A DNA stretch of 64,000 nt from Bacteroidia bacterium. Its GTDB lineage: Bacteria; Bacteroidota; Bacteroidia; Chitinophagales; Chitinophagaceae. Shown here one piece after another: positions 4,816 through 55,129 of this stretch. The stretch's first letter is position 1. Each line of letters opens with the position of its first letter. A model generated the notes under the pieces. The model saw only the letters and a list, made by a program, of their open reading frames with translations, was not told the origin of the DNA and made no database searches. The stretch is taken from assembly GCA_030427635.1 (NCBI GenBank), contig JAUIBA010000004.1:62001-126000 (forward strand), in the 5' to 3' direction. The translations under genes were made by a program, and so were the position numbers.

Positions 4816-4880
4816 CAAAGTTACCCTGGCACCCTACCCTGCTATATGACCTGTGTCAGTATTACCGCTGAACCTCGTCA
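4816..4880 (-). promoter_or_regulatory. hsp20 promoter with tandem TGA-N6-TCA operators
   Basis: Read on the plus strand: distal site TGAACCTCGTCA (4869-4880), proximal site TGACCTGTGTCA (4847-4858), and the -7 element TAACTTTG on the minus strand (4816-4823). Site centres are 22 bp apart and the proximal centre is 29.5 bp from the first T of the -7 element, placing it near -41.5. This is the geometry of a class II CRP/FNR-family activator site. The predicted mRNA start is near 4811, giving a leader of about 58 nt. Confidence 0.75.
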
Positions 4881-4893
4881 GCCCCACGGCTGA

Positions 4894-5742
4894 CTAATGG
4901 TGGGCTATAAACACCGGCGTAGCTGTAGCTTTTACTACTACCTCTGCCGCCCCGGGTTTGAAAAAACGGGAAAATGCACTGCGTCCGAATGCACCGGCCA
5001 CAAGCATCTTCTGCCAGTTGTCTGTATCATCCATAAAATAGCTGAACAATACATCACCTATAGCGCCATCTACAGTAGTGACAGTAATATTGGGGCAATG
5101 CATACGCAGCCAGACAAGGAAAGACTCCAGTGTATCATCTGATTCATTATCATTACCCTCCTCATTTGCCCTGAGTACTGTAATACGCTTACTGCTCAGC
5201 TCCGGCATCTGGTAACAAAACTGTTTTGCAGCCGCTACAGCCGCCGCAGAGCCATTATACGCTATCACAACTTCTTCCAGTGGGCGATGCGCATCTCCCG
5301 ATAGTAACACCGGGCACTCGGCATTGTGCAGAATATCTTTAACCAGACTGGTAGGAATATGTTCATCACCGGTGAATGACAGTAGCGGGTCTACAATGAT
5401 ATAGTCGGCAAAACGACTCTCTTTCAGTATTATATCAATAGGACTACCTGCCTCCCGGATAACTTTGGACGTAATGCCTGATGCTACACAAGCCTCCGTA
5501 AACCTTGTCACATTAGCATCTGTCTTATCTGCTACCGCCTTACGCTCTTCAGCATCCGGTACAATTTCTTCTACATATGTCTGCCCTGCTACCATACTTA
5601 CCCCGGGAGCCGACCAGAAACTGGCATCATGTATAAACATTCCCGTGAGCTCATTTTTTTCTACACCAGCTATAGAAACAGCAAAACGAAGTACATCTTC
5701 TGACAGGCTCAGAGCATTGGTAACAAACAGAATTCTTTTCAT
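4894..5742 (-). CDS. Universal stress protein with two tandem Usp domains
   Basis: A 282-residue cytoplasmic protein. Domain 1 (about residues 1-145) starts MKRILFVTNALSLSEDVLRFA, and domain 2 (about 150-282) contains VVIAYNGSAAAVAAAKQFC and ends with LVAGAFGRSAFSRFF and TPVFIAHH. The glycine-rich nucleotide-binding loop of domain 2 (VAGAFGRSAFSR) is close to the G-x2-G-x9-G-S/T pattern but imperfect, so ATP binding is uncertain. I chose the ATG at 5742 because the family normally begins MKRIL. A longer frame to 5841 would run through the promoter and both operator sites. Members of this family are often induced by low oxygen. Confidence 0.9.
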   Translation of the reverse strand: MKRILFVTNALSLSEDVLRFAVSIAGVEKNELTGMFIHDASFWSAPGVSMVAGQTYVEEIVPDAEERKAVADKTDANVTRFTEACVASGITSKVIREAGSPIDIILKESRFADYIIVDPLLSFTGDEHIPTSLVKDILHNAECPVLLSGDAHRPLEEVVIAYNGSAAAVAAAKQFCYQMPELSSKRITVLRANEEGNDNESDDTLESFLVWLRMHCPNITVTTVDGAIGDVLFSYFMDDTDNWQKMLVAGAFGRSAFSRFFKPGAAEVVVKATATPVFIAHH

Positions 5743-5760
5743 GACAGATATTATTTTATG

Positions 5761-5825
5761 CGAAAGTAATACAGCTATGCACGCTTTCAAATGACCATAA
5801 TCAATAATTAATATGAACATTATCA
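5761..5825 (-). promoter_or_regulatory. Universal stress gene promoter with tandem TGA-N6-TCA operators
   Basis: Plus-strand reading: distal TGAACATTATCA (5814-5825), proximal TGACCATAATCA (5792-5803), and -7 element TACTTTCG on the minus strand (5761-5768, one mismatch to TAnnTTTG). Both spacings (22 bp between sites, 29.5 bp to the -7 element) are identical to those at hsp20. The leader to the ATG would be about 14 nt. Confidence 0.75.
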
Positions 5826-5922
5826 ACGCACCGGGATGCACCTGCCATTTGTAGATATATTGTAACTAACCAGCATCAGGGATAGCTATATTCAGCATCA
5901 CATACTGATAATCACAGACACC

Positions 5923-5930
5923 TAACTTTG
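5923..5930 (+). promoter_or_regulatory. -7 element (TAACTTTG) of the CoA-transferase gene; predicted leaderless
   Basis: A perfect TAnnTTTG followed by TCTGCT and then the ATG at 5937, so transcription should start at or within a base or two of the start codon. No TGA-N6-TCA site is present at the spacing seen at the divergent stress gene. Confidence 0.55.
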
Positions 5931-5936
5931 TCTGCT

Positions 5937-7226
5937 ATGAGAAACCAGCTCAATTATGTAACGGCCGATGAGGCCGTAAGGGATATTAACAGCGGGGAAC
6001 GGGTATTCGTTCATGGCAGCGCGGCTACTCCGCTGGCATTGCTACATGCGCTTCTGCGTCGTGCCGGCAGCGTGAAAGATATAGAGCTTACAGCAATTAG
6101 CCTGTATGGGCGAATAGAGTGGAACAGACCAGAAGTGCTGGACAGTTTTTACATGAATTCATTGTTTGTATCGGAAAACATAAGGGGCTGGGCCAACTCT
6201 CAGCGAGGTAGTTATGTGCCTGTATTCCTGAGTGAAATACCTCAGCTGTTTGACAGCGGCATACTGAAGCCCGATGTTGCACTGATTCATGTATCCCCGC
6301 CCGACTATCACGGATATTGCACGCTGGGCACATCGGCTGATATAGCTATAAGTGCCGTACGGAATGCTAAAAAAATCATAGCACAGGTCAACCCTCAGAT
6401 GCCACGGGTATTGGGTGAAGGCTTCATACACTCATCAAAGTTTGATGCTGTGGTATGGGAAGATGCAGCACTGCCGGAAGTAGAGTACCCTGATACAGGC
6501 GCTATAACGGATAAAATAGGGCAACAGGTAGCATCGCTGGTAGAGGATGGGGCAACCCTGCAAATGGGTATAGGCGCTATACCCAATGCAGTACTTAAAT
6601 ACCTGGAGCATCATAAAGACCTGGGAATACATACCGAAATGTTCTCTGACGGAGTACCTGCACTGGTACACAAAGGAGTAATAACCAATACAAGGAAAAA
6701 AGTAGAACCAGGTAAAATAGTAAGCACCTTTGTACTGGGAACCCGGAAAGTATATGACTTCATAGACAATAATCCATATGTAAACTGTATGGATGTGGCC
6801 TTTGTAAATGATACAGGCGTGATAAGGCAGAACCCAAAAGTAACTGCCATTAACAGCGCCATAGAGATAGACCTTACCGGCCAGGTATGTGCAGACTCTA
6901 TTGGTACCTATCAATACTCGGGAATAGGCGGACAAATGGACTTTATGCGTGGTGCTGCACTCTCTGAAGGCGGGAAACCTATCATAGCCATGCCCTCCGT
7001 TACCTCACGGGGCATATCACGTATCGTACCGGAGCTGAAGCCGGGTGCGGGTGTGGTTACTACCCGTGGGCATATACATTATGTAGCTACAGAGCATGGC
7101 GTTGTAAACCTGTATGGCAAAAACATGGAGCAACGCGCCCGAATGATGATAAGTATAGCCGACCCTTCTCATCACGAAATGCTGGAACGTGCCTATCATG
7201 AACGATTTGGCAGGCTACCCCGGTAA
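5937..7226 (+). CDS. Acetyl-CoA hydrolase/transferase family protein (4-hydroxybutyrate or acetate CoA-transferase-like)
   Basis: A 429-residue class I CoA-transferase. The motif LQMGIGAIPNAV and the following HTEMFSDG are the family's CoA-binding and catalytic region; Glu234 in HTEMFSDG aligns with the glutamate that forms the CoA thioester. The C-terminal part has GIGGQMDFMRGA and the conserved THYVATEHG-like IHYVATEHGVVNLYG. It should exchange CoA between acyl-CoA and a carboxylate such as acetate. I chose the ATG at 5937; a TTG three codons earlier lies inside the -7 element. It is divergent from the universal stress gene. Confidence 0.88.
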   Translation: MRNQLNYVTADEAVRDINSGERVFVHGSAATPLALLHALLRRAGSVKDIELTAISLYGRIEWNRPEVLDSFYMNSLFVSENIRGWANSQRGSYVPVFLSEIPQLFDSGILKPDVALIHVSPPDYHGYCTLGTSADIAISAVRNAKKIIAQVNPQMPRVLGEGFIHSSKFDAVVWEDAALPEVEYPDTGAITDKIGQQVASLVEDGATLQMGIGAIPNAVLKYLEHHKDLGIHTEMFSDGVPALVHKGVITNTRKKVEPGKIVSTFVLGTRKVYDFIDNNPYVNCMDVAFVNDTGVIRQNPKVTAINSAIEIDLTGQVCADSIGTYQYSGIGGQMDFMRGAALSEGGKPIIAMPSVTSRGISRIVPELKPGAGVVTTRGHIHYVATEHGVVNLYGKNMEQRARMMISIADPSHHEMLERAYHERFGRLPR

Positions 7227-7237
7227 CAGCACTACAG

Positions 7238-9571
7238 TCAGAACTCTATTTTGTAACTGATATTGGGTACGATGAGTGCCTGTCGGGTTTCGTCTATACT
7301 GCCTGTAAGGTAGTTGTATTTAAAGCCTTCAAACTCAGGATACATGGTGGCATTAATAACCTTTAATGCTATGGTATGCGCTACCGCCTTCCTGTTAATC
7401 TTATAACTGGCAGTAAGATGTACTACAAAAGCAGGTGAAAACTGACTACCAAAAGTATTGGCATCGTTATATACAACATCTCCTGCGGTAGCAGATGCAG
7501 CATAATTTACAGGTGTATAACGCTCACCACCCTGATAGCTTACACGGGCATTCAGGCCCAGCACATTGGCACCCGTACGCCCCTTCTGCCACTCCTTACC
7601 CCCCAGGAGGTTGAACACATAACTGCGGTGGAACCGGGTATCCCGCCAGATACCATCACCACCTGTATAGCGCGATGAGAATATACTACCGGTGAACATC
7701 GCATAATAACCATGCGACATATACTTCTCCAGAGTAACATCAATACCATAGTTCTGCCCCTTGCCTGTGTTCTCCAGCCTCTCCGCAAAGAAAAAGTCAC
7801 TCTGCAGATTAATGAGAGATATGGGTGTACCCGCTACTACAGCTACATTGAACAAATCCTGATACCAGGGTTCTATTTTCAGGTGTACATTTTTTGACAG
7901 CCGCCGGTCATAGCTAAGTACCACATGGCTTGCCTTAGTAAAATCAAGGTCTTTATTCACAAATTCACTGCCCGATGCAGGAAGCTGTATAAAATAGAAA
8001 TTCAACCGCTCCAGCCTGCTGTGTAAACCGTAAGCCACACCCAGCGACTGCTCATCAGACAACTGATAGCGCAGGCCTATACGCGGCTCTATAGTATAGC
8101 GGCCATTGAGCGTAAATACCTGCCCGGTAACGCCCGCATTTGCCGATAGCTTTTCAGTAAGATGTACAGATGACTGGCTGTAGGCGGCAAGCAAAGCACT
8201 ACTGCCACTGCTGTTTACTATATCTGTAAGCACTCCCGGAGACAACGCATCTTTTATCTGCTGATTGTAGGTAAGCCCAGTTAGTATAATGCCTGTACGG
8301 TTTGTATGCCTGGCGCCAAATCGCTTATTGATAAATGAGTTCAGAACAAGATTGGTATAAGTGTTCTCTACCCTGTTCTGCGGAAGTAATATAAGTGTAT
8401 TGTCCAGCCTGCTGGTTTTCATATCCAGCCCGCTCACTGTAGCAGCCAGCGTAGTACGCAGATATGCTCCATTCTTCAATAACAGCTTATGTGTAAGCCC
8501 CGTGGCCCCCATGTATTGATTTACCTTCTGCTCCTCCCTGTCGCTAACATATTTCATAAGCAGCGTATCTTTCTGCACATCGGCACCTGAGTAGTCCTGC
8601 AGCCCAATACCCCACAACGAGAATGTTCCGGCTTTCTTAGTCGGGAAGTTCAGCTTAAATGATAAATCCTGATAGCGAACGCCTCCTGCATTATCAGGCA
8701 GCACTGGTGCCAGCAGTGCCAATGTAGAATATCGGTAATTAAACAGATAGGACGACTTGCCCCCTTTCACAAATGGGCCCTCGGACGATGCGTCTATACC
8801 TATAGCACCCAGCTGAAAAGTATGCTCCCGCTTCTGCGTATTCCCTGTACGCATAAATATATCAAACACGCCTGACAGTGCATTACTATACTCTGCGGGG
8901 AATGCTCCGGTAAAAAAATCAGAATTGGCCAGCATCTGACTGCTGAGTGCTGTAAGTCCACCACCGCCAAAGCTGGCAAGGTCAGCAAAGTGATTGGGGT
9001 TCGGTATTTCTACACCTTCCATTTTCCACTGTAGTGATTTTGGTGCATTGCCCCTTACCACTATACCATTGCTACCCACATTACTGGATACCCCGGCAAA
9101 GGCTGACGCCAGACGTGCGGGGTCGTCAAAACCACCGGCATAACGCGATGCTTCCTCTACACTTAACATACGGGCGCTCACAGTTGCCATCCTGTTTATA
9201 GGCTGCTCTTTATTTACACCGGCTCTTACCGTTACTTCCTTTAGGTTATAGGCACTTTCCCGTAATGCTACAGACAGCACCACCTCTCTGGCACTGCTCA
9301 CCGTAAGCTCTTTAATGATATAAGTCTCATAACCAGTCATGGACACCTGTAAGTCGTACCTGCCCGGAGCTACCCCGTTTATCACAAAGTTCCCGGCACT
9401 ATCACTACCTGCACCTACTGGCTGTGCACCACCCAGCAGTACAACAGTAGCATAAGACAATGGCTGCTGTGTGGCAGCATCAGTTACAGTGCCACGCACT
9501 GCCTGCTGTGCCCATATATATCCCGGAAAAAACAGAAATATCAACACCAGTACACGGATACCCAACTTCAT
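7238..9571 (-). CDS. TonB-dependent receptor with N-terminal carboxypeptidase-regulatory-like domain
   Basis: A 777-residue outer-membrane receptor. A signal peptide (ends GYIWA-QQ) is followed by a carboxypeptidase-regulatory-like domain (about residues 23-110: VRGTVTDAATQQPLSYATV, then GRYDLQVSMTGYE). Next come a plug domain (about 120-240: GIVVRGNAPKSLQWKMEGVE, then GAFPAEYSNALSG) and a 22-strand-type barrel ending in ISYKIEF. It would import an unknown ligand with TonB-ExbBD energy. No SusD-like partner is adjacent, so it is not a typical SusCD pair. The divergent neighbour is a PAS-LuxR regulator, with a long palindrome between them. Confidence 0.9.
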   Translation of the reverse strand: MKLGIRVLVLIFLFFPGYIWAQQAVRGTVTDAATQQPLSYATVVLLGGAQPVGAGSDSAGNFVINGVAPGRYDLQVSMTGYETYIIKELTVSSAREVVLSVALRESAYNLKEVTVRAGVNKEQPINRMATVSARMLSVEEASRYAGGFDDPARLASAFAGVSSNVGSNGIVVRGNAPKSLQWKMEGVEIPNPNHFADLASFGGGGLTALSSQMLANSDFFTGAFPAEYSNALSGVFDIFMRTGNTQKREHTFQLGAIGIDASSEGPFVKGGKSSYLFNYRYSTLALLAPVLPDNAGGVRYQDLSFKLNFPTKKAGTFSLWGIGLQDYSGADVQKDTLLMKYVSDREEQKVNQYMGATGLTHKLLLKNGAYLRTTLAATVSGLDMKTSRLDNTLILLPQNRVENTYTNLVLNSFINKRFGARHTNRTGIILTGLTYNQQIKDALSPGVLTDIVNSSGSSALLAAYSQSSVHLTEKLSANAGVTGQVFTLNGRYTIEPRIGLRYQLSDEQSLGVAYGLHSRLERLNFYFIQLPASGSEFVNKDLDFTKASHVVLSYDRRLSKNVHLKIEPWYQDLFNVAVVAGTPISLINLQSDFFFAERLENTGKGQNYGIDVTLEKYMSHGYYAMFTGSIFSSRYTGGDGIWRDTRFHRSYVFNLLGGKEWQKGRTGANVLGLNARVSYQGGERYTPVNYAASATAGDVVYNDANTFGSQFSPAFVVHLTASYKINRKAVAHTIALKVINATMYPEFEGFKYNYLTGSIDETRQALIVPNISYKIEF

Positions 9572-9596
9572 AAATTATTGTTTTAAAAACCTGATG

Positions 9597-9604
9597 CAAA
9601 GTGA
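9597..9604 (-). promoter_or_regulatory. -7-like element (TCACTTTG) of the TonB receptor gene
   Basis: One mismatch to TAnnTTTG, 25 bases upstream of the receptor ATG on the minus strand. The 18-bp palindrome at 9627-9644 lies just upstream of it. Confidence 0.4.
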
Positions 9605-9626
9605 CGGCTATTGTGCGTCCGGGCCA

Positions 9627-9644
9627 ATACTGATTAATCAGTAT
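9627..9644. promoter_or_regulatory. 18-bp perfect palindrome between the TonB receptor and the PAS-LuxR gene
   Basis: ATACTGATTAATCAGTAT reads the same on both strands. It lies 10 bases before the ATG of the PAS-LuxR gene and about 31 bp upstream of the receptor's -7-like element. A homodimeric regulator such as the LuxR-type protein encoded next to it could bind here. It differs from the TGA-N6-TCA sites elsewhere because its TGA and TCA are only 4 bp apart. Confidence 0.55.
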
Positions 9645-9654
9645 ATTGCACATA

Positions 9655-10458
9655 ATGAGCGCTGAAATGCAGGATGTATATATGGAATATCAGCAATTGC
9701 TGGCGATGCAGGAGTTTGATGCAGCTATGCTGGACTATAATGCGCTGGACAAACATTTCAGTTTTCTGCAGCAATTGGCCGAGGTGGAGAACAGTGCCGT
9801 TTCGGTATTTGACATGTATCAGCAGAAACATGTTTTTGCATCCTATAATTTCACTACTCTTCTTGGCTATGATGAAGACGGGCTGGAAGGTATGCAAAAC
9901 GAGTATTTTGATGCCCGTATACATCCCGAAGACCGTACAAAAATGATATATAATGGCATAAATGCGCTCAAGTTTATCTATTCTGTTCCCCGTGAAGAAA
10001 GGAAGCAATACAAGATAGTAACAGAGTTCAGAGTGATGAATGGTGAGGGAAACTATATACGGGTAGTAGAGCAGCAGCAGGCACTACTGCTGGACCATAT
10101 GCACAATGTATGGCTGTCACTGAGTGTAATGGATATTTCTCCCAATCAGGACGGTGTACCTGATGTTATAGGCAGAATCATCAACTTCACTACCGGCAAA
10201 ACATTTATGCTACCTGTAGCTGAGCGAAAAAGCACAACAGGAGCAGATATAAAACTAACACCCCGGGAATCCCAGATACTAACGCTTGTAAAAGAGGGGC
10301 TGCTGAGCAAGGAAATATCTGACAGGCTTTCTATAAGCGTACATACCGTAAATACACACCGGCAGCGTATACTGGAAAAGCTGGGCGCTGACAACTCTGT
10401 AGAAGCGATACGCTATGCTGCCAATCTGGGTCTGGTACAGCACCCCGGTATAATATAA
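9655..10458 (+). CDS. PAS domain protein with C-terminal LuxR-type DNA-binding domain
   Basis: A 267-residue transcription regulator. The middle (about residues 48-145) looks like a PAS_3-type fold (SVFDMYQQKHVFASYNFTTL, then HPEDRTKM). The C-terminal 65 residues are a LuxR/GerE helix-turn-helix: LTPRESQILTLVKEGL, SKEISDRLSISVHTVNTHR, ILEKLGADNS. There is no receiver domain, so control is probably by a ligand or partner at the PAS domain. I start at the ATG at 9655 rather than a TTG three codons upstream. It is divergent from the TonB receptor and may control it. Confidence 0.85.
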   Translation: MSAEMQDVYMEYQQLLAMQEFDAAMLDYNALDKHFSFLQQLAEVENSAVSVFDMYQQKHVFASYNFTTLLGYDEDGLEGMQNEYFDARIHPEDRTKMIYNGINALKFIYSVPREERKQYKIVTEFRVMNGEGNYIRVVEQQQALLLDHMHNVWLSLSVMDISPNQDGVPDVIGRIINFTTGKTFMLPVAERKSTTGADIKLTPRESQILTLVKEGLLSKEISDRLSISVHTVNTHRQRILEKLGADNSVEAIRYAANLGLVQHPGII

Positions 10459-10578
10459 CACACTTCAGGCAGTCATCTGTATGTTTTAAATCTTGTTAAA
10501 ACCAGTACTGAAGAAGACTGCAAACAGTTCTGGCATTGGGTTTGCTGTATTAATTTTAATTCACCAAATCATTACCCG

Positions 10579-11286
10579 ATGATGACACTGAGCGAAACAT
10601 GGTTCATGGAAGGGTACATAGATTACGAGCTTCAACGCTACAGGCTGCTTGCCTATCTGCAGGATGTAAGAAAGCAGTTCCATGAAAAGAAGCTGTACCC
10701 ATTATTATCAGATATTGTAGCCCACTACAACAATCTGCTCCTGTTCAGAGCTAATAAACACAACCTGCAGGAAAGCTTCCCGAAGCGCATAAACGGTATA
10801 GATGCATCGCGCATGCAACTTATCTATGAACGTATATTAACTGATGATGCGCTCATGCAGGAGCTGGAAGAAATTACTGAATTTGCAGTAACAGAAATGA
10901 AAGGTACTATCAGCGAGGGTGCAGGTATATACGATGCCATAGAGCGGGATATGCACATGGAGCCAGTGGGAATAGTACCATTGTATAAAAACGAGGGGTA
11001 TCTGTTTTTACGTACACTGTCTCATGCTGATGTATGGATATATGCATATACCGTCACGATATTTGAGCAGCAGGATGCGCGCTACAGAGGTGTGCGTATA
11101 GCATACATTGACAACAGAAAAAAGACCATCATCAATACATATGAGCAACTGAAGCTGGAGATAGTGCGGAAAATAAGGACACTACCCAATCCTGCTGTCT
11201 ATTGTATAGAATTTCCGGAGGAACTTCCATTGCAGGAAACTATGCTTCCCATTGCAAAACGCTCACTGATGCGTATTGTATCATAA
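10579..11286 (+). CDS. Conserved-looking hypothetical protein next to arginase
   Basis: I do not recognise this 235-residue soluble protein. It has no signal peptide and no membrane segment, and it is rich in Leu, Glu and Arg in the first 100 residues (likely helical). A more beta-like central part (GIVPLYKNEGYLFLRTL, then DVWIYAYTVTIFEQQDARY) follows, and a helical end. Two Met codons start it and either could be used. It is co-directional with arginase, 64 bases upstream, but arginase has its own promoter. Residues 150-190 loosely recall a compact alpha/beta domain; no catalytic motif is seen. Confidence 0.7.
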   Translation: MMTLSETWFMEGYIDYELQRYRLLAYLQDVRKQFHEKKLYPLLSDIVAHYNNLLLFRANKHNLQESFPKRINGIDASRMQLIYERILTDDALMQELEEITEFAVTEMKGTISEGAGIYDAIERDMHMEPVGIVPLYKNEGYLFLRTLSHADVWIYAYTVTIFEQQDARYRGVRIAYIDNRKKTIINTYEQLKLEIVRKIRTLPNPAVYCIEFPEELPLQETMLPIAKRSLMRIVS

Positions 11287-11337
11287 CCATACATACGAAC
11301 AGAAGAAGTGGGTACTGACCCGTTAGCCGGAAATAAT

Positions 11338-11345
11338 TATCTTTG
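11338..11345 (+). promoter_or_regulatory. -7 element (TATCTTTG) of the arginase gene; predicted leaderless
   Basis: A perfect TAnnTTTG followed by GCGAT and the ATG at 11351, so the mRNA probably begins at the start codon. It also implies that arginase can be transcribed separately from the gene before it. Confidence 0.6.
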
Positions 11346-11350
11346 GCGAT

Positions 11351-12298
11351 ATGCGCAACATAAAAATACTGGAAGTAAGGTCAGAGATAGGAGCCGGTAC
11401 CCGTGGTGCGAGCCTGGGTGTGGATGCAATTAAGATAGCAGCTCTTGACTTCATGAGCAATCTGTTTGTAAACTTTCCGTCGGAGGTTATAGAAAATGAA
11501 AACAGGCTTCTGTATGAACCTGTTGCCTCGCCATATGCCAAGAGGATACAAGGTATACATACTATGTATGAGCGGGTATCAAAAGCTGTATGTGACACTG
11601 TGAAATCGGGTCTGTTCCCGATAGTGCTGGCGGGAGACCACAGCACTGCAGGCGCTACCATAGCCGGGCTGAAAATGGCAAGACCCAAGAACCGCCTGGG
11701 GGTGGTATGGATAGATGCCCATGCCGACATGCACTCGCCTTTCACTACACCATCAGGCAATATGCATGGCATGCCGCTATCTATATCACTGGCTGATGAC
11801 AATGCCGACAATCAGGTACATAACCTGGATACACAAACCTCAGAGTTGTGGCGTAAGCTGAAAAACATTGGTAAAATAGAACCTAAAGTGCTACCTGAAG
11901 ACATTGTATTCATTGCACTGCGCGACTATGAGAAGGAAGAAGAAGCCCTTATTAAGAAGTACAATATAAAGGTGATAACAGTAGCTGAGCTCCGCAAAAA
12001 GGGCGTGGAGAATATAGTACGACAGACATTTCTCCACCTTTCCAACTGTGACAACATCTATGTATCATTTGATGTAGACAGTCTGGACAGTTCCATATCG
12101 CGCGGCACAGGTACTCCTGTAAGCAATGGACTGAAAGAAAGGGAAGCAGAAGATCTTGTTGCCTCATTTATGCAGCATCACAAAATATGCTGCTTTGAAA
12201 TAGCAGAAGTGAATCCCACTTTGGATAAAGAGAATCTCATGGCAGAAATAGCCTTTAACATACTGCAGCGTAGCGTTAACCTGCTGATGCTGAACTAG
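11351..12298 (+). CDS. rocF: Arginase / ureohydrolase family enzyme
   Basis: A 315-residue binuclear manganese enzyme. Metal ligands are visible: His97 in LAGDHST, Asp122/His124/Asp126 in WIDAHADMH, and two Asp in SFDVDSLD near residue 240. NMHGMPLS and RGTGTPVSNGL are the substrate-loop motifs, and FEIAEVNPTLD closes the domain. It should hydrolyse arginine to ornithine and urea; agmatinase or formimidoylglutamase activity is less likely from the overall motif pattern but not excluded. No urease or ornithine-using gene is nearby. Confidence 0.87.
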   Translation: MRNIKILEVRSEIGAGTRGASLGVDAIKIAALDFMSNLFVNFPSEVIENENRLLYEPVASPYAKRIQGIHTMYERVSKAVCDTVKSGLFPIVLAGDHSTAGATIAGLKMARPKNRLGVVWIDAHADMHSPFTTPSGNMHGMPLSISLADDNADNQVHNLDTQTSELWRKLKNIGKIEPKVLPEDIVFIALRDYEKEEEALIKKYNIKVITVAELRKKGVENIVRQTFLHLSNCDNIYVSFDVDSLDSSISRGTGTPVSNGLKEREAEDLVASFMQHHKICCFEIAEVNPTLDKENLMAEIAFNILQRSVNLLMLN

Positions 12299-12327
12299 TA
12301 ACCGGTAATACCAACTCACTATTCTTT

Positions 12328-48193: not shown

Positions 48194-48215
48194 GTCTGTT
48201 TGATTGAATTTTCAA

Positions 48216-48280
48216 CAAAACTACCCTACTCTGCAGCCTTGGTCAATGACCCTCGTCATTTCTGTGAATGACAGATGATA
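48216..48280 (-). promoter_or_regulatory. Promoter of the helical-protein gene with TGA-N6-TCA operators
   Basis: Plus-strand reading: proximal site TGACCCTCGTCA (48247-48258) is perfect; the distal site TGACAGATGATA (48269-48280) keeps TGA but only the last base of TCA. The -7 element TAGTTTTG on the minus strand (48216-48223) is a perfect TAnnTTTG. The spacings are again exactly 22 and 29.5 bp. The leader is about 18 nt. Confidence 0.72.
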
Positions 48281-48322
48281 GTACAATGCATAGCCATGGT
48301 TTGTTCTGGTCACTGCTGTGGG

Positions 48323-48387
48323 TGACAAGGAACATTTTCCGCTCTGACAGCCATCAATATTATCCCGGACCGATGGAAATAATATTG
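48323..48387 (+). promoter_or_regulatory. Promoter of the DUF2158 gene with TGA-N6-TCA operators
   Basis: Distal site TGACAAGGAACA (48323-48334, one mismatch), proximal site TGACAGCCATCA (48345-48356, perfect), and -7 element TAATATTG (48380-48387, one mismatch). Spacings are 22 and 29.5 bp, a mirror of the promoter on the other side of the same intergenic region. The predicted mRNA start near 48392 supports the ATG at 48406. Confidence 0.7.
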
Positions 48388-48405
48388 CACAAAACAAGAA
48401 AGCTT

Positions 48406-48621
48406 ATGGAACATCAATTTGTAACGGGCGACAAAGTACGGCTGACATCGGGAGGACCGGTTATGACCGTACGTGGCACCCACTATGACGTGGTGCACGA
48501 CAGCTACAACAATAACATGGTGGATTGTATCTGGTTTGAGAAAAAAAGCGATGGCAGAAGTGAAGTGCAATATTGCCCTTTCAATGTAAGTGAGCTTGTC
48601 CCGGTCCCCCCATCCTGCTAA
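48406..48621 (+). CDS. YodC/DUF2158-family small protein
   Basis: A 71-residue protein beginning MEHQFVTGDKVRLTSGGPVM, the typical start of the DUF2158 (YodC-like) family, an SH3-like small beta fold. It then has VDCIWFEKKSDGRSEVQYCP, also typical. Function unknown. The frame is open to 48268, but a start that far upstream would put the promoter and operators inside the gene; the ATG at 48406 follows the predicted mRNA start. It is divergent from the helical protein. Confidence 0.82.
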   Translation: MEHQFVTGDKVRLTSGGPVMTVRGTHYDVVHDSYNNNMVDCIWFEKKSDGRSEVQYCPFNVSELVPVPPSC

Positions 48622-48686
48622 AGAACAGATTCTAAAGAGCAAATAACAGAAATAATGGGCCGTTCAACGATAAAAACACCTGGAAC

Positions 48687-48751
48687 TGACGATAATCAGT
48701 CCACCCGTTGAGTAACGTCATAAACACCCCTGTATCGCGAAAATAGCTTTG
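48687..48751 (+). promoter_or_regulatory. cbb3 operon promoter with tandem TGA-N6-TCA operators
   Basis: Distal site TGACGATAATCA (48687-48698, extended symmetry ACTGA/TCAGT), proximal site TGAGTAACGTCA (48709-48720, preceded by T as in the FNR half-site TTGA), and -7 element TAGCTTTG (48744-48751). Spacings are 22 and 29.5 bp. All six key bases of both sites are present. The leader to ccoS is about 20 nt. Confidence 0.8.
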
Positions 48752-48775
48752 TACAGCAATAATAAATAAGACATC

Positions 48776-48931
48776 ATGAGTGCATTAGTAGTATTAATAG
48801 TGGTGAGCATAATAGTAGCAGGCGCATTTCTTGGCGCATTTATATGGAGTGTTTACAGCGACCAGTACAATGACAGGGAAGGCTCTGCAATGCGCATGCT
48901 GATGGATGACGATACAAACAGATTAAACTAA
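48776..48931 (+). CDS. ccoS: cbb3 oxidase maturation protein CcoS
   Basis: A 51-residue single-span membrane protein, MSALVVLIVVSIIVAGAFLG followed by AFIWSVYSDQYNDREGSAMR and an acidic end MLMDDDTN. CcoS proteins have this size, one N-terminal membrane segment and an acidic tail, and are needed for cofactor insertion into cbb3 oxidase. It is first in the operon, 24 bases before ccoNO. The copper ATPase gene ccoI/fixI, which often precedes ccoS, is not present here. Confidence 0.88.
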   Translation: MSALVVLIVVSIIVAGAFLGAFIWSVYSDQYNDREGSAMRMLMDDDTNRLN

Positions 48932-48955
48932 GAAGATCAGTTACACTTAATACAT

Positions 48956-51115
48956 ATGGAATACAGCACAAGTAGTATGACAACATCGATCCAAAACGAC
49001 AAATTCTTTTACGACAATAAGATCGTAAAATGGTTTGCATACGCCACCATATTCTGGGGCGTAGTAGGTATGCTGGCCGGTATCCTGGCAGCGTTTCAGC
49101 TGGTATATCCTTCGCTGAACTTCAATTCTGCCCCTACCACATTCGGCAGGGTAAGGCCGGTACACACCAATGCGGTGATATTCGCATTTGTGGGTAATGG
49201 TATTTTCATGGGTGTATATTATTCCCTTCAGCGCCTGTGCAAGGCACGTATGTTCAGTGACAAGCTCAGCCGTTTCCATTTCTGGGGCTGGCAGTCCATA
49301 ATAGTCCTTGCCGCACTAACGCTACTGATGGGTTATACATCAGGCAAGGAATATGCAGAGCTGGAATGGCCGCTGGACATCCTTATTGCACTCGTTTGGG
49401 TAGCGTTCGGATGGAATATGTTCGGTACTATTCTTAAGCGCAGGGAGCGTCATCTGTATGTGGCCATCTGGTTTTACATAGCCACATTCGTTACCGTTGC
49501 CATGCTGCATATTGTAAACTCTATTGAGATACCATTCTCAATGCTTAAATCATACTCATGGTATGCAGGCGTGCAGGATGCGCTGGTACAGTGGTGGTAT
49601 GGTCATAATGCGGTTGCATTCTTCCTTACTACCCCATATCTGGGCCTCATGTACTACTTCCTGCCTAAGGCAGCTAATCGCCCTGTATATTCATACCGCC
49701 TTTCTATCATTCACTTCTGGGCGCTCATATTCATCTACATTTGGGCCGGACCTCACCACCTGCTTTACACTGCCCTGCCCGACTGGGCTCAGTCTCTGGG
49801 CACCGTATTCTCTATTATGCTTATAGCGCCATCATGGGGTGGTATGCTTAATGGTCTCTTTACCCTGCGTGGTGCATGGGATAAGGTGCGTGAAGACCCT
49901 GTACTTAAATTCATGGTAGTAGCCGTAACCGCATATGGTATGGCCACCTTCGAAGGCCCAATGCTGAGCCTTAAGAATGTAAACGCTATCAGCCACTTTA
50001 CTGACTGGACTATTGCACACGTGCACGTAGGAGCTCTGGGATGGAATGGTTTCCTCACTTTTGGTATCCTTTACTATCTCATACCTAAGATATTCCGTAC
50101 AAAACTCTACTCGGTTAAGATGGCAAATCGCCACTTCTGGATAGGTACACTTGGTATCGTATTCTATGTGGTACCTATGTACTGGGCTGGCTTCATGCAG
50201 AGCCTTGCATGGAAAGAGTTTACACCAGAAGGAACACTTAAGTATCAGTTCCTGGATACAGTAAAGCAGATGCAGCCATTCTACGCTATGCGTGGTATAG
50301 GTGGTGTACTCTTCCTTATAGGTGCGCTTATCATGTGCTACAACCTGTATAAAACTATCCAGACAGGTAATGTACTGAATGAAGAAGCTGCAGAAGCCCC
50401 TGCACTCAGTAAAGAATATGTACCGCATGGCTCTCAGCACTGGCACAGGTGGATAGAACGCCGCCCTGTACAGATGCTTGTATGGAGCCTGGTAGTGGTA
50501 GCGCTGGGTGGTATTATAGAAATGATACCCACATTCATGGTGAAGTCTAATATACCTACTATATCCAGTGTAAAACCATACACTCCACTGGAGCTTCAGG
50601 GCCGCGATATATATGTAAGAGAGGGTTGCTACCTCTGCCACAGTCAGATGGTTCGTCCGTTCCGCAGCGAGGTAGTGCGATATGGTGAGTACTCAAAAGC
50701 CGGTGAGTTTATTTACGACCACCCATTCCAGTGGGGCAGTAAGCGTACCGGTCCTGACCTGGCCCGTATAGGTGGTAAATATCCTGACAGCTGGCACTTT
50801 AACCACATGTACGATCCGGGTAGTATCTCTCCTGCTACTATCATGCCATCATACCCATGGCTGTTTAAAGACAGGATAGATACAGCGTCTACAGGTGCAA
50901 GAATAAGGGCTATGATTACCCTGGGCGTACCATACGAAAAAGGATATGACCTCATAGCCAACAAAGATCTGATGGCCCAGGCCGATGGAATCGTAGCTAA
51001 TCTGGCAAAAGATAAGATAACTGTGAAGAGTGATAAGGAGATAATAGCGCTGATTGCTTATCTGCAGCGTGTAGGTACTGACATTAAACTGGAACAGAAA
51101 ACAACACTAAAATAA
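48956..51115 (+). CDS. ccoN: cbb3-type cytochrome c oxidase, fused CcoN-CcoO subunits
   Basis: A 719-residue fusion. Residues about 15-485 are CcoN with 12 membrane segments and the heme/copper histidines (WWYGHNAVAFF, WAGPHHLLYTALP, AHVHVGALGWNGF). Residues about 500-719 are CcoO with one membrane segment (LVWSLVVVALGGIIEMIP) and a heme c site GCYLCHSQMVRP near residue 557; a Met ligand is likely in ATIMPSYPWLF. The fusion is the usual form in Bacteroidota. The enzyme reduces oxygen with high affinity, which suits low-oxygen growth. Confidence 0.96.
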   Translation: MEYSTSSMTTSIQNDKFFYDNKIVKWFAYATIFWGVVGMLAGILAAFQLVYPSLNFNSAPTTFGRVRPVHTNAVIFAFVGNGIFMGVYYSLQRLCKARMFSDKLSRFHFWGWQSIIVLAALTLLMGYTSGKEYAELEWPLDILIALVWVAFGWNMFGTILKRRERHLYVAIWFYIATFVTVAMLHIVNSIEIPFSMLKSYSWYAGVQDALVQWWYGHNAVAFFLTTPYLGLMYYFLPKAANRPVYSYRLSIIHFWALIFIYIWAGPHHLLYTALPDWAQSLGTVFSIMLIAPSWGGMLNGLFTLRGAWDKVREDPVLKFMVVAVTAYGMATFEGPMLSLKNVNAISHFTDWTIAHVHVGALGWNGFLTFGILYYLIPKIFRTKLYSVKMANRHFWIGTLGIVFYVVPMYWAGFMQSLAWKEFTPEGTLKYQFLDTVKQMQPFYAMRGIGGVLFLIGALIMCYNLYKTIQTGNVLNEEAAEAPALSKEYVPHGSQHWHRWIERRPVQMLVWSLVVVALGGIIEMIPTFMVKSNIPTISSVKPYTPLELQGRDIYVREGCYLCHSQMVRPFRSEVVRYGEYSKAGEFIYDHPFQWGSKRTGPDLARIGGKYPDSWHFNHMYDPGSISPATIMPSYPWLFKDRIDTASTGARIRAMITLGVPYEKGYDLIANKDLMAQADGIVANLAKDKITVKSDKEIIALIAYLQRVGTDIKLEQKTTLK

Positions 51116-51122
51116 CTGAGTC

Positions 51123-51296
51123 ATGAAATTCATACATTATCTGGAGCGCATCACCGGAGTAGGTATATATCCACTCACCTCGCTCGCTATATTCTTCCTG
51201 TTCTTTCTGGTAATGGCTTTATGGTCGGCCAGGGCAGACAAAACATACATACGTATCATGAAGAACATCCCTTTTCCTGACGAAAACAATCAGTGA
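51123..51296 (+). CDS. ccoQ: Small membrane subunit CcoQ-like
   Basis: A 57-residue protein lying exactly where ccoQ is expected, between ccoNO and ccoP. One membrane segment (LTSLAIFFLFFLVMALW) is followed by a basic, short cytoplasmic end (RADKTYIRIMKNIPFPDE). CcoQ/FixQ proteins stabilise the oxidase complex. The sequence is too short for certainty beyond position and layout. The ATG begins 5 bases after the ccoNO stop codon. Confidence 0.82.
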   Translation: MKFIHYLERITGVGIYPLTSLAIFFLFFLVMALWSARADKTYIRIMKNIPFPDENNQ

Positions 51297-51318
51297 TCAC
51301 ATTTTAAAACGAGCATAC

Positions 51319-52464
51319 ATGCGCTTATATAACAGAATAAAATTACTTACTGCCGCATCAATGATGGTTATGCCTCAGGTAGTGTGTGCAGCTGACGGGC
51401 AGAACTCAGGCTATAACGAAACATTAATAACGCTTGTGAGCCTGATGCTGATACTGGTACTGGTTATCGGTGTTCTGGCTACCACAGTGCGCAATCTGGG
51501 TATTGTGGTCAAAGAAAAAATACAAAAGGATAAAAGCTCAGGCAGCAATATTATCAAGTCGGTACTCCTGCTGGTATTACTCATACCTACAGTTGCCTTT
51601 GGTCAGGATACTGCACACGCATCTACAGGACCTGACGTTATAGCAGGTATGGCTGCTATGGACTTTTATACACTGGCAGGTGTTATCATACTGGAGCTTG
51701 CTGTAGTATTTGCACTTACCCTCTATATCAATGTACTGCTTAAAGTACTAAAAGGTGTACCGGAAGAAGAAGAAGCTGCAAGTAAAGCTACTGCAGAGAA
51801 AAAGAGCTGGTTCTGGGACAACTTTAATAGTGCCGTTACCGTAGAAAAAGAAAAGGACATCCTGCTGGATCATGACTATGATGGCATTCAGGAGCTGGAC
51901 AACAGTCTGCCCCCATGGTGGAAGTATGGCTTTTATCTCACAATTGTTGTAGCCTGTATATACATCTACAGATTCCACATTTCTCATGATGGTCCAAGTT
52001 CATCAGAGGAGTTTGTTGCAGAAATGCAGAAAGGAGAGGAAGACAAAGCTGCATATCTGGCAAAGTCTGCCAACAATGTGGATGAGACCAACGTGGTACT
52101 GCTCACCGATGCAGCATCACTGGCGGCAGGAAAGGAAAACTTTGTTCGTAACTGCGCCGCCTGCCATCTGGCAGATGGTGGAGGCTCTGTAGGACCAAAC
52201 CTTACCGACGACTACTGGCTGCACGGCGGCAGTGTAAAAGATGTGTTCAAATCAGTAAAATATGGCTGGCAGGACAAGGGTATGAAGAGCTGGAAAGACG
52301 ACCTGTCGCCCAAGCAGATTCAGGAAGTTGTCAGCTTCATCAGAACGCTGAAAGGCACCACACCTCCTGCCGCAAAAGCACCTCAGGGCGACCTCTATGT
52401 AGAGGCAACCGCAGCGCCTGTAGCTGTACAGGATACTACTGCAGCTGCAGAAAAGGCAGAATAG
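51319..52464 (+). CDS. ccoP: cbb3 oxidase subunit III (CcoP), single-heme type with extended N-terminus
   Basis: A 381-residue protein. An N-terminal signal-like segment ending VVCA-AD and a membrane span (TLVSLMLILVLVIGVLA) are followed by a second signal-like segment (VLLLVLLIPTVAFG-QD) and another span (GVIILELAVVFALTLYI). The FixP N-terminal domain follows (LDHDYDGIQELDNSLPPWWK, then a span). Only one heme c motif, NCAACH, is seen in the C-terminal cytochrome domain; most proteobacterial CcoP have two. An Ala/Pro-rich tail closes it. The layout suggests a fusion of a small membrane protein to CcoP. Confidence 0.9.
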   Translation: MRLYNRIKLLTAASMMVMPQVVCAADGQNSGYNETLITLVSLMLILVLVIGVLATTVRNLGIVVKEKIQKDKSSGSNIIKSVLLLVLLIPTVAFGQDTAHASTGPDVIAGMAAMDFYTLAGVIILELAVVFALTLYINVLLKVLKGVPEEEEAASKATAEKKSWFWDNFNSAVTVEKEKDILLDHDYDGIQELDNSLPPWWKYGFYLTIVVACIYIYRFHISHDGPSSSEEFVAEMQKGEEDKAAYLAKSANNVDETNVVLLTDAASLAAGKENFVRNCAACHLADGGGSVGPNLTDDYWLHGGSVKDVFKSVKYGWQDKGMKSWKDDLSPKQIQEVVSFIRTLKGTTPPAAKAPQGDLYVEATAAPVAVQDTTAAAEKAE

Positions 52465-52491
52465 TACAGGCATAGTCCAAAAAGAATAGCA

Positions 52492-53898
52492 ATGGAACAA
52501 CAGAAAGTAAATAAGGACACATTCAGGGATAAGGTAGCCACGATAGACAAAAAGGGCAAAAGGATATGGATATTTCCGCAAAAGCCCGAAGGCAGGCTAT
52601 ACAACTTCCGCAAGCTGGCTTCAGTATTATATCTGATTGTCTTCTTCGGACTACCCTTCCTGAAAGTGGATGGACACCCTATATTCCTTATTAACATTCT
52701 GCAGCGTAAGTTCATATTGTTTGGTCAGATATTCTGGCCTCAGGACTTCTTCATATTCGCCATAGGGATGATTGTTTTCATTGTGTTTGTGGCACTATTC
52801 ACAGTCGTCTTCGGGCGTGTATTCTGTGGATGGGCCTGCCCACAAACCATATTTATGGAAATGATATTCCGCCGGGTAGAGTACCTGATAGAAGGTAATG
52901 CAGCACGGCAGCAGGTGCTGGCAGCAGCCCCCTGGAATGCAGATAAGATTTTGAAGAAAACCACAAAATGGGTAGCATTCTGGCTTATCAGCTTCATCAT
53001 AGCCAATACCTTCCTGGCATATATGATAGGGGTAGATGAGCTGAGACTCCTGATAAGTGAGCCCCTGTCTCAGAATCTGGGCACATTTGTTACCCTTCTT
53101 GTATTCACCACAGTATTCTTCTTTGTATATCTGTGGCTGCGGGAGCAGGTATGTACCGTAATATGCCCATATGGCCGTATGCAGGGAGTGCTGCTGGATA
53201 AGAACTCTGTAGTAGTAGCATATGACTATAAACGTGGAGAGCCCCGTGGCAAGTTTCATAAAAATGAAGAGCGCAGCCTGGGTGACTGTATTGATTGTAA
53301 ACAGTGTGTGCGGGTATGCCCTACCGGTATAGACATCCGTAACGGCACCCAGCTGGAGTGCGTAAACTGTACTGCATGTATTGATGCCTGCGACAAAATG
53401 ATGAACGCTGTAGGAATGCCTACAGGTCTTATCAGGTATGCATCAGAGAATAACATTGCGAAGAAACGTCCATGGATACTTACCGTACGTGCCAAAGCAT
53501 ACAGTGTGGTAATGGTGTTACTGCTGGGTGTACTTGTATGGCTGCTCACCAGCCGTACCGATGTAAATGTTACACTACTGCGTACACCGGGCCAGCTGTA
53601 TCAGGAACAGCCCAACAACCAGTTAAGCAATCTGTATAGCTACAAACTGCTCAATAAAACTTTCAGAGAAAAGAAAATAGTTCTGAAGCCGGAGAACTTC
53701 AAAGGAACAATAAAGCTGGTAGGTGAAACTGACCTTATAGTGCCCAAAGATGACATCATTACCGGCACCATGTTTATATACCTGGACAAAAGTGATGTAA
53801 AAAGCAGAAAAACTCCATTGAAAATAGCTGTTTACGATGGCAATAAAAAAGTAGCCACAGTAACTACCTCTTTCCTTGGACCATTTACTGAAAATTAA
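52492..53898 (+). CDS. ccoG: cbb3 oxidase accessory iron-sulfur protein CcoG
   Basis: A 468-residue membrane ferredoxin-like protein (FixG/RdxA). About five membrane segments surround the motif VFCGWACPQTIFME. Two 4Fe-4S motifs follow (CIDCKQCVRVCP, CVNCTACIDAC), and an immunoglobulin-like C-terminal domain comes after the last span. CcoG reduces Cu(II) for insertion into cbb3 oxidase in Rhodobacter. The gene starts 27 bases after ccoP. Confidence 0.94.
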   Translation: MEQQKVNKDTFRDKVATIDKKGKRIWIFPQKPEGRLYNFRKLASVLYLIVFFGLPFLKVDGHPIFLINILQRKFILFGQIFWPQDFFIFAIGMIVFIVFVALFTVVFGRVFCGWACPQTIFMEMIFRRVEYLIEGNAARQQVLAAAPWNADKILKKTTKWVAFWLISFIIANTFLAYMIGVDELRLLISEPLSQNLGTFVTLLVFTTVFFFVYLWLREQVCTVICPYGRMQGVLLDKNSVVVAYDYKRGEPRGKFHKNEERSLGDCIDCKQCVRVCPTGIDIRNGTQLECVNCTACIDACDKMMNAVGMPTGLIRYASENNIAKKRPWILTVRAKAYSVVMVLLLGVLVWLLTSRTDVNVTLLRTPGQLYQEQPNNQLSNLYSYKLLNKTFREKKIVLKPENFKGTIKLVGETDLIVPKDDIITGTMFIYLDKSDVKSRKTPLKIAVYDGNKKVATVTTSFLGPFTEN

Positions 53899-53910
53899 AA
53901 CATAACTGTT

Positions 53911-54351
53911 ATGCAACTAAGTTGGGGATGGAAAATATCAATGCTGTACACCGGATTTGCAGTAATGATTATAGTACTGGTAGTAGCAAGCAGCCGTCAG
54001 AAATTCGATCTGGTATCTGCCGACTACTATCAGAAAGAGATAGAATACCAGAAGGTAATAGATGCCGGCCACAATCAGGCATCCCTGGCAGGTACAGTAA
54101 CCCTGCATGACGATGCATCTGCCGTATATATTGACCTGCCTCAGGAGTTCAAAGACCAGATAGCCAGTGGTGATGTACACTTCTACTCTGCCGTAAATAA
54201 AGACTGGGATTATACAGACAAAGTAAATACCACCAATGGCAGAATAACCGTACCTAAAGATAAGCTGCACCAGACCCGGTATTCTGTACGTCTCAGCTAT
54301 ACGGTAAATGACAAAGATTACTATTTTGAAACCGAAGTACCCGTAAGATAA
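53911..54351 (+). CDS. fixH: FixH-family protein
   Basis: A 146-residue protein with a short N-terminal membrane segment (ISMLYTGFAVMIIVLVVASS). The typical FLVSADYYQKEIEYQ-like block follows (FDLVSADYYQKEIEYQ), then a periplasmic beta domain (RYSVRLSYTVNDKDYYFE). FixH works with FixG and FixI in cbb3 assembly. It starts 12 bases after ccoG and ends 2 bases before the next gene. Confidence 0.88.
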   Translation: MQLSWGWKISMLYTGFAVMIIVLVVASSRQKFDLVSADYYQKEIEYQKVIDAGHNQASLAGTVTLHDDASAVYIDLPQEFKDQIASGDVHFYSAVNKDWDYTDKVNTTNGRITVPKDKLHQTRYSVRLSYTVNDKDYYFETEVPVR

Positions 54352-54353
54352 TA

Positions 54354-55067
54354 ATGAACAGCGCTACATACATAATGGCATTGATGATGGGGCTTACAGG
54401 TAGCCTGCATTGTGTAGGTATGTGCGGTCCTATTATCTGGATAATGCCCTTTCAGCGGTTCACAGGGCTGCGCAAGGCACTGGCGTTAGGCATCTATCAC
54501 CTTTCCCGTATATCAGTATATGCTGCTATGGCAGTTGTACTGCACTCTTTTCGCAGTGTGTTTAATCCTCAGGTGCAGCAGTATGTTTCCATTGCACTTG
54601 GTGCCCTGCTGCTGCTGGCCGGGCTACTCTACTTCTTCCCAGTCGGTAAACTGGTTCCCGTATCTCTGCCCTGGGCAGGCTTTGTAAAGAATCGCCTGTC
54701 TGCTCTGGTAGGCAGTACCCGTCTCTCTGCCATTGCATTGTCAGGTTTACTGAACGGCATGCTCCCCTGCGGGCTGGTATATATGGCGCTATCTGCTACC
54801 ATATCGCTCAGCACAGCTACTGACGCTATACTGTTTGTCTATACATTCGGCGCCGGTACGGTACCCGTACTCACAGGTATATCTCTGTTGCGTAGCCGTA
54901 TGCCCATATTACAGCGTAGTTCTTTCAGAAAGCTCACCCCTGTTATTGTTATGTGCTTCGGCTGTCTCTTCCTGCTTCGTGGCCTTAACCTCGGCATCCC
55001 CTACCTCAGTCCTAAAGTACAGATGCAGCATGGCAAGGTGCAGCACTCCTGCTGCCACAAAAAATGA
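54354..55067 (+). CDS. Sulfite exporter TauE/SafE-family membrane protein (metal-handling type)
   Basis: A 237-residue protein with about six membrane segments. The opening motif GLTGSLHCVGMCGPI has a CxxxC pair, and GLLNGMLPCGLVYMAL is the second repeat, both typical of the DsbD/SafE-like proteins found beside fixGH. The C-terminal tail is rich in His and Cys (MQHGKVQHSCCHKK), suggesting metal binding. Likely role: copper or other metal handling for oxidase assembly, inferred from position. Its TGA stop is the first half of a perfect TGACCATGGTCA palindrome. Confidence 0.85.
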   Translation: MNSATYIMALMMGLTGSLHCVGMCGPIIWIMPFQRFTGLRKALALGIYHLSRISVYAAMAVVLHSFRSVFNPQVQQYVSIALGALLLLAGLLYFFPVGKLVPVSLPWAGFVKNRLSALVGSTRLSAIALSGLLNGMLPCGLVYMALSATISLSTATDAILFVYTFGAGTVPVLTGISLLRSRMPILQRSSFRKLTPVIVMCFGCLFLLRGLNLGIPYLSPKVQMQHGKVQHSCCHKK

Positions 55068-55129
55068 CCATGGTCAGCGTCCCACATGACCAAAATCTGT
55101 GCTCCTGCAGCTGCTTAACGATAATTTCA
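55065..55129 (+). promoter_or_regulatory. Promoter of the PAS kinase/CRP-regulator pair with TGA-N6-TCA operators
   Basis: Distal site TGACCATGGTCA (55065-55076) is a perfect 12-bp palindrome, proximal site TGACCAAAATCT (55087-55098) has one mismatch, and the -7-like element is TAATTTCA (55122-55129; TA and the first two T of TTTG match, the last two bases do not). Spacings are 22 and 29.5 bp as at the other five promoters. The predicted mRNA start (near 55134) is almost at the ATG at 55137. Autoregulation is the natural reading. Confidence 0.6.

Follow-up and report, generated by a model that had tools for sequence, protein, structure and literature searches.

The stretch analyzed here, a 64,000-nucleotide window (positions 62,001 to 126,000 of the forward strand) of contig JAUIBA010000004.1 from the Chitinophagaceae assembly GCA_030427635.1, carries six promoters sharing one operator design. 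They precede the genes of an Hsp20 protein, a universal stress protein (usp), a small unnamed protein, a DUF2158 protein, a cbb3 oxidase operon, and a PAS sensor kinase followed by a regulator in which a receiver is joined to a CRP-type activator, termed below "receiver-CRP" (Table 1). The full layout reads TGA-N6-TCA, N10, TGA-N6-TCA, N23, TAnnTTTG and comprises 18 fixed bases, i.e., a distal and a proximal site followed by a -7 box. These six promoters very probably belong to a low-oxygen regulon that is served by receiver-CRP in this genome and by an FNR protein with four cysteines in some relatives. More broadly, a soil and freshwater family of Bacteroidota appears to turn on its low-oxygen genes via paired sites at a single spacing.

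Table 1. Tandem-operator promoters of the window and the genes that follow them.
Feature	Position	Strand	Details
hsp20 promoter	4816-4880	-	distal 4869-4880, proximal 4847-4858, -7 box 4816-4823; 0 mismatches
hsp20 gene	4313-4753	-	PF00011, E 2.3e-21
usp promoter	5761-5825	-	distal 5814-5825, proximal 5792-5803, -7 box 5761-5768; 1 mismatch, in box
universal stress protein gene	4894-5742	-	PF00582, E 1.9e-9; start MKRILFV read from sequence
small helical protein promoter	48216-48280	-	distal 48269-48280, proximal 48247-48258, -7 box 48216-48223; 2 mismatches
small protein, 127 aa	47810-48193	-	no Pfam match; "helical" is the earlier note's description
DUF2158 promoter	48323-48387	+	distal 48323-48334, proximal 48345-48356, -7 box 48380-48387; 2 mismatches
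DUF2158 gene	48406-48621	+	PF09926, E 4.9e-7; start read from sequence
cbb3 operon promoter	48687-48751	+	distal 48687-48698, proximal 48709-48720, -7 box 48744-48751; 0 mismatches
ccoS/fixS maturation gene	48776-48931	+	PF03597, E 1.2e-17
fused CcoN-CcoO cbb3 oxidase gene	48956-51115	+	PF00115 then PF02433, one open frame, ccoS ahead
kinase/receiver-CRP promoter	55065-55129	+	distal 55065-55076, proximal 55087-55098, -7 box 55122-55129; 3 mismatches
PAS-PAS-HisKA-HATPase sensor kinase	55137-56852	+	domain search; first PAS resembles FixL haem PAS
receiver-cNMP_binding-HTH_Crp regulator	56863-57921	+	proposed reader of the tandem sites

An earlier note on this DNA had described the six promoters and proposed that their layout is the signature of a CRP/FNR-family regulon of this lineage. 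A pattern search of the window finds all six, in register as it stated, with all twelve operator bases perfect upstream of hsp20, usp and the cbb3 operon, as it also reported; the kinase promoter is the weakest. The proposed signature is supported by the controls, by a geometry found family-wide and by placement ahead of gene starts. With three mismatches or fewer allowed, the window contains six copies of the full pattern, whereas 100 dinucleotide shuffles average 0.09 and never exceed 2; for the tandem core by itself, with two mismatches allowed, the count is 13 with 2.9 expected. Over the whole genome (4.25 Mb, 49 contigs; up to three mismatches), 22 matches (13 + 9) are obtained, compared with 0 + 1 for the reversed pattern used as control. 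The core alone, with at most one mismatch, has 21 places versus 4 in the control, and being palindromic it scores on both strands at every place. All nine genome matches with at most two mismatches lie upstream of a co-oriented gene start, while placement ahead of genes does not hold for some of those with three. Outside the window, the former include the promoters of hemN, of homogentisate dioxygenase, of a secreted protein and of an unnamed 170-residue protein (names of downstream genes in this genome were assigned by eye from sequence). The thirteen matches with three mismatches include those of a heavy-metal ATPase, a DUF983-like protein, another PAS kinase and the window's kinase, together with two intragenic ones (L027, L031) and others that are palindromic pairs read in reverse (L025/L026, L032).

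The spacing was then left free in a search of 147 family genomes (TGAC-N5-TCA, gap 0-30, TGA-N6-TCA, gap 8-38, TAnnTTTG), which yields 113 matches in 62 genomes, against 7 for the reversed pattern. With 111 of the matches parsed, one of them in two readings, 112 spacing assignments result. A single cell of the 961 available (31 values per gap), that of gaps 10 and 23, takes 67 of these, and 86 lie within one base of it, among them 10 at (10,24) and 9 at (10,22); the other cells are scattered and hold at most three each. The 22-bp distance between the sites is thus kept across the family as the earlier note would have it, whereas the distance to the -7 box, which it also took as fixed, flexes between 22 and 24 nt.

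The same tandem geometry is kept in 80 named receiver-CRP loci (897 kb). At one mismatch or fewer, 64 matches fall at (10,23), the other first gaps having no more than four each and the other second gaps no more than three; 59 of the 80 loci have a match at two mismatches or fewer. In these loci, a perfect site combined with a perfect box is found 43 times at a gap of 45, the distal position, 7 times at 46 and at most four times elsewhere between 30 and 60, and 34 of the 43 distal-selected promoters possess a proximal site with at most one mismatch. Selection at a gap of 23, the proximal position, gives 25 promoters for a background mean of 0.43, of which 17 have a distal site with at most two mismatches. 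Since each single-site selection recovers the partner site, the two sites co-occur, the distal one being stricter. In four close relatives, the full pattern at up to three mismatches gives 25, 46, 31 and 27 matches, against 3, 5, 6 and 2 for the reversed one. A scan of 218 genomes of the phylum with the variable-gap search finds matches in 26, and the in-register ones outside the family (judged by eye) belong to the same order or class (G207, G287, G169, G354 and, with two, G241), with G194 beyond. At the strictness used, the design is therefore mainly one of Chitinophagaceae, plus scattered occurrences in the class.

A single palindromic pair of sites can also serve two divergent promoters, each having its own -7 box 23 nt away, as exemplified by L219:4459-4554, G012:C308:706-801, G027:C1:2159832-2159927 and G005:C83:22829-22924. 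In the window, the pair lying between usp and the divergent gene at 5928-7226 (+ strand) is in register for usp. In G097, a genome of the same genus, a tandem promoter with one mismatch (C18:18934-18998, L318) stands before a gene 74% identical to 5928-7226.

A logo of 130 promoters, 66 of which were preselected for a C after the first TGA, displays TGAY-N4-RTCA twice and the TAnnTTTG box, with unconserved spacer bases. No -33 element is visible in these 130 promoters (~0.01 bit at that position). The box itself is the Bacteroidota one, and its position relative to the transcription start is taken from Flavobacterium psychrophilum, in which the sigma-A box spans -12 to -5 according to PMC9723704. 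Site centres are predicted at -41.5 and -63.5 because the box is placed accordingly. The predicted geometry is thereby that of the class II/III type, an activator site near -41.5 without a -33 element. The same source describes the cbb3 oxidase of F. psychrophilum as upregulated under oxygen limitation, and its main text does not mention FNR or CRP.

A simple rule was applied to call the gene downstream of each of the 86 in-register family promoters; it yielded a gene for 84, and these were clustered with 64 targets from the named-loci promoters (at most one mismatch), which are biased to receiver-CRP neighbourhoods, giving 148 in total. In three cases (G040, G118, G130) the gene called lies ~200 nt downstream and may not be the first one, and the window reference rows for usp, ccoS and DUF2158 are void in the clustering. 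The largest clusters, excluding the window's own genes, are ccoNO (28), PAS kinases (12) and CcoI-type ATPases (12, one of them double-counted), followed by hsp20 (9), the small helical protein (9), usp (7), cytochromes c (6 and 3), an unnamed 125-residue protein (5), DoxX (5), pyridoxamine-oxidase-like proteins (4) and hemN (3); 31 targets are singletons. Pfam names of representative targets comprise ScdA_N/hemerythrin, hemerythrin, Rrf2, DoxX, FixS and cytochrome c. The equivalent of the cbb3 promoter is listed in 23 other genomes, and the homogentisate dioxygenase promoter is kept in G089; no relative of the DUF2158 protein was seen among the targets examined, in lists judged by eye. Judged by its gene content, with recurrent cbb3 oxidase, CcoI-type ATPase, HemN, cytochromes c, Hsp20, usp and PAS kinases, the regulon looks like a microoxic one of the FixK/FNR kind.

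The 127-residue protein of the window has homologues that follow tandem promoters elsewhere, making it a candidate for a new low-oxygen or stress protein. An uncharacterised family of secreted proteins or lipoproteins with an NYTYL motif is also found after tandem promoters (L105, L106, L299, L311, L313 and L317, in G005, G079 and G105).

The regulator encoded next to the sensor kinase belongs to the CRP/FNR superfamily (PF00027, E 3.2e-24, and PF13545, E 2.6e-14, in the frame 56782-57921). Its nearest named relatives, among the best 80 of 589, are largely from Chitinophagaceae, the top one (79%) from a Taibaiella metagenome-assembled genome. It is not an FNR of the iron-sulfur type: a receiver replaces the cysteine-rich N-terminus, and EVAMIP is found where FNRs have VCFIP. 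The receiver retains the D, T and K (read from the sequence) that are expected for phosphorylation. Among the six CRP-type matches in this genome, receiver-CRP alone has the recognition helix GTATES.IR, and the best match to an FNR query has an E-value of 7e-34. In this genome, the tandem sites are thus likely to be read by receiver-CRP.

In the family, receiver-CRP was called absent when the best E-value was above 1e-60 (40 of 147 genomes) and FNR present at E-values of 6.8e-55 or below (38 genomes), from lists read by eye. Seven genomes called without receiver-CRP nevertheless have strict in-register sites. In six of them, the best match is a CRP protein devoid of a receiver, which harbors CxxC-x8-C near its N-terminus and a fourth cysteine in a VCF[IV]P stretch, all four being present in six of the six genomes shown; the seventh assembly, G012 (72% complete), offers a weak match only. 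These cysteines would hold an iron-sulfur cluster. The recognition helix of this alternative regulator, GTATE[ST]xIR, is that of receiver-CRP, and the motif is present in 94 of 102 receiver-CRPs, 20 of 23 four-cysteine FNRs and none of the 9 other CRP rows (a label that had also taken in 13 receiver-CRP or FNR rows). The ccoN operator is alike in 11 genomes with receiver-CRP only, 5 with FNR only and 8 with both, all 24 having been preselected for the strict pattern. One rigid operator design thus seems to be served by two sensors. Some FNR orthologs (L276, L283, L295, L296 and L297) lack the third N-terminal cysteine, in genomes with and without receiver-CRP.

The presence of the design follows that of the regulator genes. 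Strict matches occur in 54 of 125 genomes having either regulator and in 1 of 22 having neither (Fisher p 2.5e-4); by class, they are found in 34 of 87 genomes with receiver-CRP only, 14 of 20 with both and 6 of 18 with FNR only. At one mismatch or fewer, the search was extended to 56 genomes (55 of the 92 without an in-register strict match, plus G012), in which the reversed pattern gives one match. Matches are then found in 21 of 22 sampled genomes with receiver-CRP only and no strict match (22 of 53, chosen by order of handle, genomes with off-register matches being excluded), in 7 of 12 with FNR only and in 3 of 22 with neither. The most matches at this stringency, 25, are those of G045, which would suit this genome's host to tests of the regulon. 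The design is lacking from 19 of the 22 genomes with neither regulator; the three exceptions are G012, G092 (60% complete) and G078, where a CRP-type fragment, 42% identical to receiver-CRP and 40% to FNR, lies at the edge of a contig and may come from a protein with or without a receiver. Furthermore, a regulator gene is found no more than 10 kb away from 32 of the 86 in-register promoters (receiver-CRP for 22, FNR for 10), when ~0.5 are expected by chance on a rough estimate, and from 3 of 27 off-register matches, in a tally limited to the regulator rows listed in match-bearing genomes. The FNR gene stands 3.1-3.3 kb from the tandem ccoN promoter in G066, G080 and G136; in G031, G125 and G146 it is located elsewhere.

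In a 76-row tree (36 of 107 receiver-CRPs, every third one, with 31 FNR-type and 9 other CRP rows), the receiver-CRP rows form one group with support 97/94. That the receiver was gained or lost several times over was considered and set aside, as this monophyly makes one fusion sufficient. Four long "other" rows join the receiver-CRP branch, so that FNR and receiver-CRP do not emerge from the tree as clear sister groups. On balance, we favor the idea that the sensor has been exchanged on a frozen tandem operator across the family, an iron-sulfur FNR versus a receiver-CRP of single origin with its FixL-like kinase, the architecture being the conserved unit. Genomes with both regulators may represent intermediate states or two-threshold systems.

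Of the 80 named loci, 77 could be evaluated, and in 71 of these the kinase gene immediately precedes that of receiver-CRP. Structures of the FixL haem PAS account for seven of the eight matches, at E-values up to 1e-8, of the window kinase's first PAS domain. The best of these (E 1e-17) is gap-free over 112 residues and matches the histidine of the FixL RHDS stretch, which we take to be the haem ligand. A profile search finds a FixL-type histidine in the PAS of 61 of 72 kinases. A haem oxygen sensor is plausible from these alignments, with a chemistry that may differ from that of FixL, because the histidine is aligned but the distal arginine is seldom kept.

Taken together, these elements suggest the following mechanism. 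The kinase would sense oxygen or redox state, probably through its FixL-like PAS, and phosphorylate receiver-CRP, two dimers of which would then occupy adjacent positions, -63.5 and -41.5, on one face of the DNA. The distal site, of tighter consensus, would probably be loaded first and the looser proximal one filled cooperatively, and the dimers would activate a -7-only promoter that itself has no -33 element. In this genome, the low-oxygen regulon would comprise perhaps fifteen to twenty promoters. The kinase operon may be autoregulated; its promoter, though the weakest of the six, has a counterpart before the orthologous gene in G097, and PAS kinases recur among the targets. In relatives without receiver-CRP, the four-cysteine FNR, with the same recognition helix, would read the same operators.

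Several observations weigh against a low-oxygen regulon shared by receiver-CRP and FNR. The FixL-type histidine is missing from 11 of 72 kinases, and the position of the FixL distal arginine (R220) is occupied by methionine in the window kinase; among 63 histidine-bearing PAS domains, methionine stands there in 28 and arginine in only 8. Hsp20, usp and homogentisate dioxygenase also suit a general stress signal. Five of the 12 FNR-only genomes and one of the 22 sampled receiver-CRP genomes have no match at one mismatch or fewer, and in four of the seven site-bearing genomes without receiver-CRP (G012, G031, G125 and G146) no regulator gene lies within 10 kb of the site. The family genomes are related by kinship, hence their counts are non-independent samples, and one promoter of G141, listed at both contig ends, is counted twice in the spacing, proximity and target tallies. 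In G097, where 20 of 25 matches were examined, the promoters of ccoN and of the kinase are retained, the latter also with three mismatches, and none of the 20 corresponds to hsp20, usp, the helical protein or DUF2158. Regulon membership thus turns over, as only two of the window's targets are retained among the matches read.

The nature of the signal is where another explanation has some weight: nitric oxide, quinone redox state, starvation or light in place of oxygen is an unlikely alternative, though one to be taken seriously. The Hsp20, usp, ScdA-like and hemerythrin targets would also suit nitric oxide or general stress, and the arginine position of FixL is not conserved in the kinases; on the other hand, the commonest target is the high-affinity oxidase of cbb3 type along with its maturation gene, both hemN and the CcoI-type ATPase recur, and the alternative regulator possesses an FNR-like cysteine set. 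It is decidedly improbable that receiver-CRP is a mere neighbour and that another CRP-family protein of this genome (C17:178878, C46:4788 or C17:27656) reads the sites. These three proteins are above the family cut-off, and two have an E..SR helix, which resembles that of FNR; however, the presence of the design tracks the receiver-CRP and FNR genes, beside which the sites cluster, and the single recognition helix of these two regulators is absent from the other three.

More improbable still is a repressing role, in which two dimers would obstruct RNA polymerase. A proximal anaerobox does repress fnrN in Rhizobium leguminosarum, but that site is located at -2 (both from PMC7888657), whereas the tandem sites end at or upstream of -36; moreover, the lack of a -33 element suits activator dependence. 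As for chance or a shared repeat element without regulatory function, TGA-N6-TCA is indeed loose enough for the core to be expected at the rate given above, yet the excess of the full pattern over shuffled sequence, the concentration of assignments in one spacing cell and the unconserved spacer make this practically negligible. A low-oxygen regulon read by receiver-CRP, or by the four-cysteine FNR, is therefore retained.

The oxygen control of respiration in Bacteroidota is scantly described. Among the top-ranked results in the open-licence literature, no description of this operator design or of a receiver-CRP hypoxia regulator was found. CRP/FNR regulons of wastewater bacteria, including Bacteroidota, have been analyzed with motifs of known regulators, and the word "tandem" is absent from the main text of that study (PMC8510549). 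If correct, the present reading would allow low-oxygen genes to be predicted genome-wide in a large environmental family, would give unnamed proteins candidate roles, and would make testable how a regulon swaps its sensor without rewriting its operators. A 22-bp pair on a -7-only promoter would also be a clean setting in which to study activation from two sites by means of a Bacteroidota sigma factor.

Among known systems, class III CRP/FNR promoters, which have two activator sites, resemble the present ones in that both sites face the same side of the helix and one of them is near -41.5; in contrast, the pair here is a regulon-wide rule at 22 bp with a Bacteroidota -7 box, not an occasional type. 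In mycobacteria, DosR/DevR exerts two-component hypoxia control over hspX-like and usp genes. The window system would share this mode of control and has hsp and usp targets too, whereas DosR is a receiver-LuxR-type protein and not a CRP. FNR and FnrN are approached by the alternative regulator, with its CxxC-x8-C and additional cysteine, and by the TGA...TCA operators of its genomes. They differ from the window's reader, which lacks the cysteines and carries a receiver, and the x8 cysteine spacing of the alternative regulator differs from the x5 of Escherichia coli FNR.

The closest parallel is the FixL-FixJ-FixK cascade of rhizobia, which controls fixNOQP. The likeness lies in a FixL-like PAS kinase, a CRP-type regulator, and targets including a cbb3 oxidase, a CcoI/FixI-type ATPase, FixS and hemN. 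FixJ is composed of a receiver and a LuxR-type helix-turn-helix, whereas the output domain of the window regulator is HTH_Crp_2; receiver and CRP are thus united in one protein, without a separate FixJ step. The operators differ as well, the FixK anaerobox being TTGAT-N4-ATCAA (PMC7888657), while the site here is TGAY-N4-RTCA without a fixed outer T, and is present twice at 22 bp. In rhizobia, a FixL-type path and FnrN act on common anaeroboxes, as reported in that source; the logic is the same in Chitinophagaceae, except that the operator differs, the regulator is a fusion and the tandem layout is fixed. We propose that the system is a FixL-FixJ-FixK cascade shortened by one step, in which the kinase would address the regulon directly because the receiver is fused to the CRP-type activator.

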